IMG/VR virus record: IMGVR_UViG_3300013126_004080
Span: 1-51,615 of that record
Strand: one strand, 5' to 3'
DNA from: a virus
DNA: 51,615 bases
Part shown: in pieces, positions 3,797 through 51,615 of the stretch
How positions within the stretch are numbered: position 1 is the stretch's first letter
How the letters are laid out: every line of letters starts with the position of its first letter
Made by a program: the position numbers and the translations under genes
The notes under the pieces: generated by a model
Databases searched by the model: none
What the model was told of the DNA's origin: nothing
What the model saw: only the letters and a program-made list of their open reading frames with translations

Positions 3797-4581
3797 AAAT
3801 ATTTCTTATAAATTTAAAAAAAGATACAGAACGACTTGATTTAATACTACATCAATTTAAAAAATTTAATATAACCAATTTTGAAATTGTGGAGGCAGTG
3901 TATGGAAAAGAATTGAATGACCTAGAATTAAACTCTTGTTATAACAGAAAGAGCGCATCTAGAATTATTAGAGAATTATCACTATCAGAAATTGGATGCG
4001 CTTTTTCTCATATAAAAGTATATCATCGAATAATTAAAGAAAATAAACGATGTTTAATTATCGAAGACGATGTAATTTTATCTGATGAATTTGTAAATTT
4101 TATTGATATAGAAATTGAAGATTCATGTGACATTGTATTTTTTGGATTAGACACATCTAACTGTGAACATGAAAATTTACCTAAAACTTACCTTTACAAA
4201 AATATAAGATATTCAAAAAATCTTTATGGCCACACAAACAGGTGTTACTTAAAAAATTCATATTCCACTTTTGGTGATATGAATTTTTATGACATTGATG
4301 AACAAACAATAAAGTTTAATTTATTGATTGGCACCCATGCGTATGCTCCGTCGGTTGAAGCATGTTATAAAATTATTAACATTAATTATCCAGTCAAAAT
4401 GATGGCAGACTATGTTTGGAATTTTTGTGATTTATCTTTTAAAATTTCAAAACAAAATATAGTAAATGTTAATCGTTCCCTAGAAAGCACGATTTCTGCT
4501 GATAGAAATTTTATTAACGAAAATTGCCAATATGGTAAGCACTTTGTAAAAAAAATAACCAGTGAATGGTATAATAAATGA
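3793..4581 (+). CDS. Glycosyltransferase family 25 protein
   Basis: A 262-residue protein that opens with MKIFLINLKKDTERL, the classic GT25 (LPS beta-1,4-galactosyltransferase type) beginning. ELSLSEIGCAFSHIKVY follows at about 61-77, then LIIEDDV (EDD at 91-93), the acidic triad typical of the family. Known members add galactose or glucose to lipooligosaccharide or to hydroxylysine of collagen. The nearby collagen-like fibre makes modification of collagen-type repeats a conceivable but unproven role. ATGA overlaps on both sides tie it to its neighbours. Confidence 0.85.
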   Translation: MKIFLINLKKDTERLDLILHQFKKFNITNFEIVEAVYGKELNDLELNSCYNRKSASRIIRELSLSEIGCAFSHIKVYHRIIKENKRCLIIEDDVILSDEFVNFIDIEIEDSCDIVFFGLDTSNCEHENLPKTYLYKNIRYSKNLYGHTNRCYLKNSYSTFGDMNFYDIDEQTIKFNLLIGTHAYAPSVEACYKIININYPVKMMADYVWNFCDLSFKISKQNIVNVNRSLESTISADRNFINENCQYGKHFVKKITSEWYNK

Positions 4582-49838: not shown

Positions 49839-49866
49839 TTGACAAATTAACCTACACCTGTATAAT
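49839..49866 (+). promoter_or_regulatory. Consensus sigma70 promoter of the tRNA cluster
   Basis: TTGACA (49839-49844) and TATAAT (49861-49866) are both perfect and lie 16 bp apart. The promoter starts transcription about 30 bp before the first tRNA fragment, so the tRNA region is likely read early by host polymerase. The same layout and -10 flank recur at 51574-51601. Confidence 0.88.
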
Positions 49867-49902
49867 TACATATATACGATCTTTAAAAAAATTAGGTTTT
49901 TC

Positions 49903-49951
49903 GGAAGCGTGGCAGAGCCCGGTTTATTGCACTAGTTGGAAATACTAATTC
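49903..49951 (+). pseudogene. 5' part of an interrupted tRNA-Ser
   Basis: GGAAGCG (acceptor strand) is followed by TGGCAGAGCCCGGTTTATTGC, nearly identical to the D-arm region of tRNA-Ser(TGA) at 50428, then ACTAGTTGGAAATACTAATTC. The GGA triplet suggests a tRNA-Ser(GGA), but in the downstream context only a four-pair TAGT/ACTA stem forms and position 33 would be G. The matching 3' part lies at 50522-50558, about 570 bp away. Either a broken gene or a split tRNA. Confidence 0.72.
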
Positions 49952-49952
49952 T

Positions 49953-49960
49953 TATAAATA
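49953..49960 (+). promoter_or_regulatory. Late promoter for HNH gene, in a hairpin loop
   Basis: TATAAATA, an exact T4-type late element, lies in the loop between ATACT...TC (49942-49951) and GAAGTAT (49974-49980), which can pair with a three-base bulge. The second arm touches the ribosome site AGGAGGA and reaches to the HNH start codon. Late transcripts beginning downstream of the element would lack the first arm. Confidence 0.65.
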
Positions 49961-49980
49961 AACATATAGGAGGAAGTATA

Positions 49981-50466
49981 ATGAACTGTCAATATTGCCA
50001 TAGAGAATTAGTTAACACTGGTGCTTTAACCTTGCACGAAAAACATTGTAAACATAATCCAAATAGAATTCAAAGAACTCGTTCGCCAAATGCGGGCGCA
50101 AAGAAAGGATCAACTCCTTGGAATAAAGGAAAGGAAGTTGGTAGATATGAGAAATGGAATGAAAAGTTTTCTTTAGAAAACGTTTTAACCGAGAATAGCA
50201 CCTACGCTAGACACCATGTGAAACGTAGAATTTTAGAAGAAAATTTAATTGAATATAAATGTCAGTGTTGTGGCATTGGTCCTGAATGGAATGGCAAACC
50301 TATGCCATTAATTCTCGATCATATCAATGGCGTAAACAATGACAATAGGTTAGAAAATCTTAGATTTGTGTGTAGCAATTGTGATTCACAGTTAGACACA
50401 TATAAGTCTAGGAATATAAAGAAAAAAGGTGTTGTGGCAGAGTCCGGTTTATTGCAACTGACTTGA
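49981..50466 (+). CDS. HNH endonuclease interrupting the tRNA-Ser gene
   Basis: A 161-residue protein from ATG 49981, six bases after AGGAGGA. CQYCHRELVNTGALTLHEKHC is a CCHC-like zinc knuckle. The HNH module CQCCGIG...LILDHINGVNNDNRLENLRFVCSNC has two CxxC pairs and the DH...N...N core. The last 12 codons (GVVAESGLLQLT) are read from the tRNA-Ser(TGA) gene, so the frame runs 39 bp into it and stops in the anticodon stem. A mobile, tRNA-targeted homing enzyme is the simplest reading. Confidence 0.85.
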   Translation: MNCQYCHRELVNTGALTLHEKHCKHNPNRIQRTRSPNAGAKKGSTPWNKGKEVGRYEKWNEKFSLENVLTENSTYARHHVKRRILEENLIEYKCQCCGIGPEWNGKPMPLILDHINGVNNDNRLENLRFVCSNCDSQLDTYKSRNIKKKGVVAESGLLQLT

Positions 50467-50519
50467 AATCAGTCGAACCAGAAATGGTTCCGTGGGTTCG
50501 AATCCTACCAACACCGCCA
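50428..50519 (+). tRNA. tRNA-Ser(TGA)
   Basis: Class II cloverleaf: acceptor GGTGTTG/CAACACC, anticodon stem ACTGA/TCAGT with loop CTTGAAA (anticodon TGA), variable arm GAACC/GGTTC, T-stem GTGGG/CCTAC with loop TTCGAAT, discriminator G, encoded CCA. It reads UCA and related codons. Its 5' end overlaps the HNH gene. Confidence 0.93.
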
Positions 50520-50521
50520 AT

Positions 50522-50558
50522 TTGGAAACCGTGAGTTCGAATCTCACCGCTTCCGCCA
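50522..50558 (+). pseudogene. 3' part of the interrupted tRNA-Ser
   Basis: TTGGAAACC is followed by a perfect T-arm (GTGAG, TTCGAAT, CTCAC), then CGCTTCC, which pairs fully with GGAAGCG at 49903-49909, discriminator G and CCA. It lacks its own 5' half and begins three bases after tRNA-Ser(TGA). The heptamer TTGGAAA occurs at both junctions (49936-49942 and 50522-50528). Confidence 0.75.
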
Positions 50559-50564
50559 AAATAT

Positions 50565-50656
50565 GGTGAGATGGCCGAGAGGCTTAAGGCAACAGGTTGC
50601 TAACCTGTCGGTTCAGGTAACTGGGCCCGTGGGTTCGAATCCCACTCTCACCACCA
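50565..50656 (+). tRNA. tRNA-Ser(GCT)
   Basis: Acceptor GGTGAGA/TCTCACC, D-arm GGCCGAGAGGCTTAAGGC, anticodon stem ACAGG/CCTGT with loop TTGCTAA (anticodon GCT), long variable arm, T-stem GTGGG/CCCAC with TTCGAAT, discriminator A, CCA encoded. It reads AGC and AGU. Confidence 0.94.
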
Positions 50657-50658
50657 AC

Positions 50659-50753
50659 GGTAGGTAGCACTGGTGTGCGGCGGGGCCTTATAAACCCTGG
50701 AGATCGGTCAGATGGGCTGAAACGGAAGGGATCGTAACCCTTACCTACTACCA
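50659..50753 (+). tRNA. Atypical tRNA-like gene, possibly Ile(TAT)
   Basis: A 95-nt element. Acceptor GGTAGGT/ACCTACT pairs with one G-U; T-stem AAGGG/CCCTT has loop ATCGTAA; CCA is encoded. GCAC/GTGC forms a D-stem with a very short loop. CGGGG/CCCTG forms an anticodon stem with a nine-base loop CCTTATAAA; a seven-base reading gives anticodon TAT. A 26-base stretch with TCAG/CTGA lies where the variable loop belongs. It may be a degenerate gene, a tRNA with an insert, or a non-standard tRNA. Confidence 0.5.
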
Positions 50754-50760
50754 AATTTTT

Positions 50761-50789
50761 GCACAGATGGCAGAGTGTTCTGAGATTAT
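50761..50789 (+). pseudogene. tRNA 5' remnant
   Basis: GCACAGATGGCAGAGTG followed by TTCTGAGATTAT resembles an acceptor strand plus D-arm (compare TGGCAGAG in both tRNA-Ser sequences). No matching 3' half with TCTGTGC is present before tRNA-Cys begins. Likely the leftover of a rearranged tRNA gene. Confidence 0.45.
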
Positions 50790-50863
50790 AACGGGTTGGC
50801 CGAGAGGTTAGGCTCTAGTCTGCAAAACTAGCCAGGTGGGATCGTTACCCACACCCGTTTCCA
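50790..50863 (+). tRNA. tRNA-Cys(GCA)
   Basis: Acceptor AACGGGT/ACCCGTT, D-arm GGCCGAGAGGTTAGGC, anticodon stem CTAGT/ACTAG with loop CTGCAAA (anticodon GCA), T-stem GTGGG/CCCAC with unusual loop ATCGTTA, discriminator T, CCA encoded. The T-loop starts with A where T is usual, a feature shared with the atypical element upstream. Confidence 0.9.
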
Positions 50864-50866
50864 TTA

Positions 50867-50906
50867 TTCGAACTTACATTTTATATAAATAATAAGTATG
50901 TTCGAA
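50867..50906 (+). promoter_or_regulatory. Hairpin with late promoter in its loop
   Basis: TTCGAAC (50867-50873) pairs with GTTCGAA (50900-50906), extended by TAC/GTA after one mismatch. The loop contains TATAAATA (50884-50891), an exact late element. The AGGA ribosome site directly follows the second arm. A late transcript would start near 50898, after the first arm, and escape the hairpin. This is the second case of this design in the tRNA cluster. Confidence 0.7.
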
Positions 50907-51525: not shown

Positions 51526-51573
51526 GTTTCGACCTTGTGCTCCAGTTGTAAAAAAACAACAGATAAAAAACAG

Positions 51574-51601
51574 TTGACAGTGGTACCAATACCTGTATAA
51601 T
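51574..51601 (+). promoter_or_regulatory. Consensus sigma70 promoter at right edge
   Basis: TTGACA (51574-51579) and TATAAT (51596-51601) with a 16-bp spacer. The last six spacer bases, the -10 box and the next base (ACCTG-TATAATT, preceded by different sequence) match those of the promoter at 49839-49866. It would drive genes or tRNAs beyond the window. Confidence 0.85.
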
Positions 51602-51615
51602 TGATTCTGTTGTCG

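Follow-up and report, generated by a model that had tools for sequence, protein, structure and literature searches.

Why should a phage keep a tRNA-Ser gene in two pieces, with an endonuclease gene and a second, complete tRNA-Ser gene lodged between them? This arrangement is found near the right-hand end of the window, by which the whole stretch of DNA analysed is meant, namely the entire linear IMG/VR contig IMGVR_UViG_3300013126_004080 (51.6 kb), the major capsid gene of which is nearest to those of T4-like cyanophages (~75% identity). An earlier note, made from the letters alone, had listed two tRNA parts, 5′ and 3′, and between them a late promoter, an HNH gene and a complete tRNA-Ser(TGA), all of which are present (the complete tRNA according to ARAGORN), and had offered two readings, a homing cassette which has broken its target gene or a split tRNA with associating halves. 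An empty site in a closely related locus, the identical isotype of the broken and the carried gene and the recurrence in other phages agree in supporting the former. With a probability of roughly 0.8 these are cassettes of free-standing homing endonucleases, which cut a tRNA gene while supplying a diverged replacement, and thus natural 'home-and-rescue' elements.

The flanks of the insert are matched by the related locus L206, which is 96% identical to the left flank (49857-49931) and 98% identical over 50529-50777, and which harbors a single intact tRNA-Ser(UGA) between both matching blocks. Relative to L206, the window has lost ~33 nucleotides (nt) comprising the anticodon arm and the variable arm and has gained 597 nt. 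The insert is thus present in one and absent from the other of two otherwise near-identical sites, and by sequence L206 is an almost exact empty site from nearly the same phage region. The two tRNA parts of the earlier note are real, but their limits differ from those proposed, as the left-hand homology ends at 49931 instead of 49951 and the right-hand homology starts at 50529. The 7-bp acceptor strands of the halves are perfectly complementary, as had been recognized, a match found in 0.15% of random 7-mers of the window if G-U pairs are allowed; chance pairing is excluded because both halves align to one intact tRNA-Ser gene of L206 at the same place. The TTGGAAA heptamer previously seen at both junctions (49936-49942 and 50522-50528) does occur there, but it carries no weight and was rejected as a target duplication, because the window contains 30 copies versus 23.6 expected and the other two-remnant loci described below lack it.

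The isotype of the broken gene had been given as tRNA-Ser(GGA), which does not hold, since L206 has a UGA anticodon at the exact spot; the uninterrupted relative that had been looked for therefore exists, albeit with UGA and not GGA. The 29-nt 5′ half is identical to intact tRNA-Ser(UGA) genes of L206 and other contigs. A pattern scan finds this 29-mer in 26 viral contig stretches, where every complete tRNA sharing it has the CTTGAAA (UGA) loop and the sole non-UGA case is a contig-end fragment reading CGA. The near-identity of the D-arms of the broken and the carried tRNA is likewise real, but with the 29-mer so widely distributed it reflects ordinary homology only. As the broken gene is a tRNA-Ser(UGA), the insert brings with it a copy of what it destroyed. 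This copy is 84% identical to L206 over 55 nt, whereas the resident remnants lie in the 96% and 98% blocks and are nearer to L206 than the carried copy. More distant relatives, recognized by the upstream gene (L085, L086 and L087-L091), contain one intact tRNA-Ser(UGA) followed by a tRNA-Ser(GCT). Within these, the near-identical phages L087/L088 and L089-L091 differ in their tRNA-Ser(UGA) from the D-arm to the variable arm, like a swapped core; there is no HNH gene at this site.

A second cassette, unnoticed before, is located 0.25 kb downstream of the first. Here the tRNA-Cys of the window, intact in L206, breaks off at 50777 and resumes at 51536. The intervening insert comprises another, complete tRNA-Cys(GCA) that differs from the resident one, followed by a late promoter and a further nuclease-like gene; the carried tRNA precedes the nuclease here, whereas it follows the nuclease in the Ser cassette. 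The encoded protein matches phrog_23051 (function unknown, E 5.9e-31), and its HNH-like motif is recognizable by eye only. In all of its relatives L346-L351 a tRNA-Cys(GCA) is situated just upstream, and most of the more distant relatives are near a tRNA-Cys as well. Both resident halves are retained in L346, L347 and L348/L349, with acceptor pairing in 7/7 positions and with CCA preceded by U, as is typical of tRNA-Cys. In the Ser cassettes the carried gene has the isotype of the broken one, and the same holds independently for the Cys cassettes; the carried tRNA-Ser(UGA) and tRNA-Cys can, as predicted from their genes, stand in for the lost targets. That the carried tRNA-Ser could compensate for the loss had been suggested before, and it agrees with the UGA isotype of the L206 gene. 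As a separate observation, the tRNAs at 50659-50752 (missed by ARAGORN) and 50790-50863 have the T-loop GATCGTAAC or GATCGTTAC and not GTTCGAATC. Read as its reverse complement, the usual T-loop gives RAWTSGAAC, the motif reported for the phage homing endonuclease SegB, and therefore these variant tRNAs could resist such nucleases.

Relatives of the HNH protein were gathered by protein similarity only, which gave 121 distinct loci and a tree of 114 rows built on few columns and with many weak forks. One homologue of the HNH protein is encoded by Enterobacter phage KKP_3262. A tRNA-Ser(UGA) adjoins 40 of the 41 distinct HNH proteins of the branch that includes the window, 33 by ARAGORN label and seven by eye. 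All 33 labelled rows lie on one 41-row side of the tree, and the label changes 8 times on the tree compared with 28.9 times after shuffling (0/500 shuffles as low). Inspection of the remaining eight rows revealed five with a tRNA-Ser(UGA) directly downstream that ARAGORN had missed, two with one directly upstream, and L147 as the exception; in L147 (1774-1950) the tRNA that comes next seems to contain a group I intron. Other HNH branches adjoin tRNA-Trp or tRNA-Gln. The association with tRNA-Gln extends to bacterial chromosomes (L176-L188, mostly Solirubrobacterales), where the HNH relatives lie shortly downstream of tRNA-Gln(TTG).

Ser-type cassettes recur in unrelated phages. Two remnants with matching acceptor strands are found in the window, L109, L112, L100 and L231, the 7-bp complementarity being perfect in the window and most of the others, and each of these loci also contains a complete tRNA of matching isotype. 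The 5′ half alone is kept in L115, L132, L144, L099 and L116, the 3′ remnant of L109 has shrunk to ~12 nt, and L010/L127 represent a mirror form in which the 3′ end is copied. The left half mostly ends at or near the anticodon arm, and it begins ~80 nt ahead of the HNH start in the window, L099, L100, L109 and L112. L100 and L102 depict two outcomes at one locus, a carried tRNA plus 3′ remnant versus a regenerated tRNA.

A pattern scan for the 5′ half together with a late promoter recovered L112 and L115 and newly yielded L227/L231 and L228; its hits in L219-L223, L226 and L229 were discarded as chance matches, in protein genes or elsewhere. In L231 (3410-4240) and L227 the tRNA-Ser is split by a different nuclease gene carrying a tRNA-Ser(CGA), missed by ARAGORN; the L231 nuclease contains the same kind of N-terminal module and, by eye, a Vsr-like C-terminus. 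L228 (2910-3640) shows a tRNA-Ala(UGC) 5′ half reaching to the anticodon loop, a late promoter and a GIY-YIG gene extending into a tRNA-Gly, immediately preceded by a complete tRNA-Ala(UGC). In L081 an HNH gene is followed by a tRNA-Leu(TAG), the 5′ half of which recurs, identical at 29/29 positions, on the other side of the HNH gene (3802-3830).

The HNH protein of the Ser cassette matches the HNH family phrog_10822 (E 2.5e-33) as well as Pfam HNH_3 (E 7.5e-5, slightly under the curated cut-off), and a sequence search of the PDB returned no match. Asp113, His114, Asn126 and the cysteines 94, 97, 131 and 134 are invariant, and the gene is under purifying selection (pairwise ratio of nonsynonymous to synonymous polymorphism, pN/pS, 0.08-0.39). 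It resides outside an intron or intein, as Rfam finds only tRNA families and the host gene is a tRNA and not a protein gene. No site-specific recombinase is encoded in the Ser insert, which besides the HNH gene contains only an antisense open reading frame of 43 amino acids, and the HNH protein itself has no recombinase match. The 3′ end of the HNH reading frame overlaps the carried tRNA-Ser(UGA) gene by 39 nt.

From 49000 onward the plus strand contains only two late promoters TATAAATA, one per cassette. In the Ser cassette the promoter occupies the 5′ arm and the loop of a hairpin which, in the minimum free energy (MFE) fold of read-through or long transcripts, pairs the ribosome-binding site AGGAGG (49968-49973). 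Similar hairpins surround the late promoter in L112, L115, L124 and L136 (z about -2.6 to -3.3), and the hairpin in the leader of the Cys cassette likewise encloses its late promoter. A late promoter combined with a hairpin hiding the ribosome-binding site has been reported for T4 intron endonucleases, SegB and MobE of phage Aeh1 (PMC2988022), and the Ser cassette of the window displays the same arrangement. This is a common, though not universal, trait of free-standing HNH homing endonucleases.

Table 1. Coordinates of the two cassettes and their parts in the window.
Feature	Position	Strand	Basis or content
5′ half of resident tRNA-Ser(UGA), GGAAGCGTGGCAGAGCCCGGTTTATTGCA	49903-49931	+	acceptor strand, D-arm, position 26
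Whole Ser insert, 597 nt	49932-50528	+	gap between two L206-homologous blocks
RNA hairpin around late promoter	49942-49979	+	MFE fold
T4-type late promoter, TATAAATA	49953-49960	+	exact motif
HNH endonuclease gene, 161 amino acids	49981-50466 (ATG 49981, stop 50466)	+	open reading frame
Carried complete tRNA-Ser(UGA), acceptor GGTGTTG/CAACACC	50428-50519	+	ARAGORN; Rfam RF00005, 55.5 bits
3′ half of resident tRNA-Ser(UGA), CCGTGAGTTCGAATCTCACCGCTTCCGCCA	50529-50558	+	T-arm, acceptor strand, CCA; L206 identity
Cassette 2: resident tRNA-Cys, 5′ part	50761-50777	+	L206 identity stops at 50777 within its tRNA-Cys
Cassette 2: carried complete tRNA-Cys(GCA)	50790-50863	+	ARAGORN
Cassette 2: late promoter TATAAATA in hairpin (50867-50906)	50884-50891	+	
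Cassette 2: zinc-finger, HNH-like nuclease gene, 202 amino acids	50917-51525	+	open reading frame
Cassette 2: resident tRNA-Cys, 3′ end	51536-51544	+	51536-51615 99% identical to L206rc 860-940

In the mechanism that we propose, expression of the HNH protein would be driven by the late promoter of the cassette at a late stage of a mixed infection, and the protein would cleave the uninterrupted tRNA-Ser(UGA) gene of a rival phage at, or close to, its anticodon arm. During repair the cassette would then be copied from the donor, with the tRNA halves and the neighbouring tRNA genes serving as homology. The resident gene would be left as two halves, and with the anticodon and variable arms the presumed cut site would be removed, which would render the donor immune. 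The carried tRNA would replace the lost function and make the insertion tolerable; since the cassette brings its own intact tRNA-Ser copy, the phage probably loses nothing. The adjoining tRNA-Cys cassette would work in the same manner with a different nuclease.

Several observations weigh against this explanation. For every member we infer cutting and transfer, and the cleavage site is a guess from the break point only. The right-hand junctions differ between the loci, and a Foldseek search of the PDB gave no confident match, only weak HNH-like ones (best E 0.04). Furthermore, the carried tRNA-Ser(UGA) retains the CTTGAAA loop, so that any resistance to cutting would rest on other positions. 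One such position could be the closing pair A31-T39, which is enriched in HNH-adjacent tRNAs (18/40 versus 13/117, Fisher 1.4e-5, a statistic that ignores shared ancestry) and which hints at a recoding against self-cutting. However, many carried tRNAs lack this pair and L313 has it without an adjoining HNH gene, and the pair was therefore rejected as proof of cut resistance and is regarded as an association only. By inspection, no other nucleases were recognized upstream of the A31-T39 tRNAs lacking this HNH gene.

The alternative that survives best, although it is improbable, is passive accretion, in which illegitimate recombination between tRNA genes dropped the genes into the array and the nuclease does not cut its target. 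The ease with which tRNA arrays recombine and the variable right-hand junctions fit this view, as does the core difference between the near-identical L087/88 and L089-91, which concerns a site without HNH gene. It does not account for a nuclease branch of which 40 out of 41 members adjoin one and the same isotype, for the agreement of broken and carried isotype in two independent kinds of cassette, or for the purifying selection on the nuclease. Slightly less probable still is that the cassette is kept mainly for a tRNA variant that escapes tRNA-cutting defences, anticodon nucleases of the host among them, with the nuclease as a mere vehicle. In favour of this, tRNA amplification linked to SegB defeats tRNA-cutting defences (PMC13096335), and deviations at the base pair that closes the anticodon stem are commoner among carried tRNAs. 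The usual closing pair is nevertheless kept in many of them, and tRNA-Ser(UGA) is not known as a main target of such defences. Escape from defence would be compatible with a homing cassette and does not exclude it.

The split tRNA of the earlier note, with halves assembling in trans via the acceptor stem, is very unlikely: the perfect acceptor pairing that speaks for it is inherited from one gene, the halves of the window jointly fall short of a full tRNA by ~33 nt, with the variable arm and the 3′ anticodon strand among the missing parts, the 3′ part of L109 is shorter yet, one half is lost at some loci, and no locus is without a complete tRNA of that isotype. Group I introns of tRNA genes sit at the anticodon arm, where the 5′ half stops, but a degenerated intron with a left-over endonuclease gene is equally hard to credit, as no intron family reaches the Rfam threshold in the window, the exons flanking the insert are incomplete, unlike an intron the insert includes a further complete tRNA and has displaced 33 nt of its target, and among the relatives collected here none has the same HNH gene inside a recognizable group I intron in tRNA-Ser(UGA).

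The homing-cassette explanation may be extended, with odds slightly better than even, to phage tRNA arrays in general. These would then host widespread natural home-and-rescue drives built on several unrelated kinds of nuclease (HNH, the tRNA-Cys-linked family, the Vsr-like type and perhaps GIY-YIG). Most of the drives would be tied to a single isotype, each would cut the tRNA gene in question and install a diverged, cut-resistant copy, and they would be a main cause of tRNA gene turnover and of tRNA fragments in phage genomes. The many HNH genes, odd tRNA fragments and duplicates of such arrays are usually explained by codon usage or defence, and isotype-specific destroy-and-replace cassettes would offer a directly testable selfish-element cause for them. 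They would also provide nucleases with predictable natural targets, namely individual tRNA genes, and a natural example of the home-and-rescue principle behind engineered gene drives. No description of tRNA-replacing cassettes in phages was found in the literature searched, which comprised open-licence papers only.

The engineered home-and-rescue drive similarly cuts an important gene and, as its design is understood here, carries a rescue copy (PMC7968924), but it is a man-made Cas9 construct in insects whereas the window contains a natural phage element. Group I introns of tRNA genes are likewise mobile inserts harmless to the host gene (PMC3984707); they achieve this by splicing, whereas the phage cassette, in which no intron was found, would do so by gene replacement. 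Closest in place are SegB (PMC13096335) and MobE (PMC2988022). SegB of T4/T6 is, like the nucleases of the window, a homing endonuclease within a phage tRNA array, and it cuts within tRNA genes (PMC2988022, PMC13096335). It differs in being a GIY-YIG enzyme without tRNA isotype preference, inserted between tRNAs and lacking the combination of a broken target and a replacement copy (PMC2988022, PMC13096335). In phage Aeh1 the HNH homing endonuclease gene mobE splits a host gene, nrdA, in a T4-like phage; there the split protein halves still cooperate, (PMC2988022), whereas in the window the tRNA halves seem non-functional and the cassette brings a spare copy. Closest in principle are the mobile endonuclease reading frames of fungal mitochondria, found in atp6 of Allomyces and in atp6, atp9, cox2 and nad3 of Glomus (PMC3630166). 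In both systems an endonuclease gene sits in its target and a diverged copy of the lost part is carried, a working one in mitochondria and a putatively working one in the phage, and in both the remnant is nearer to the relatives than the carried part. The mitochondrial elements belong to other nuclease families, reside in protein genes and replace the 3′ end only (PMC3630166), whereas the cassettes of the window carry a whole tRNA gene and keep both resident halves.
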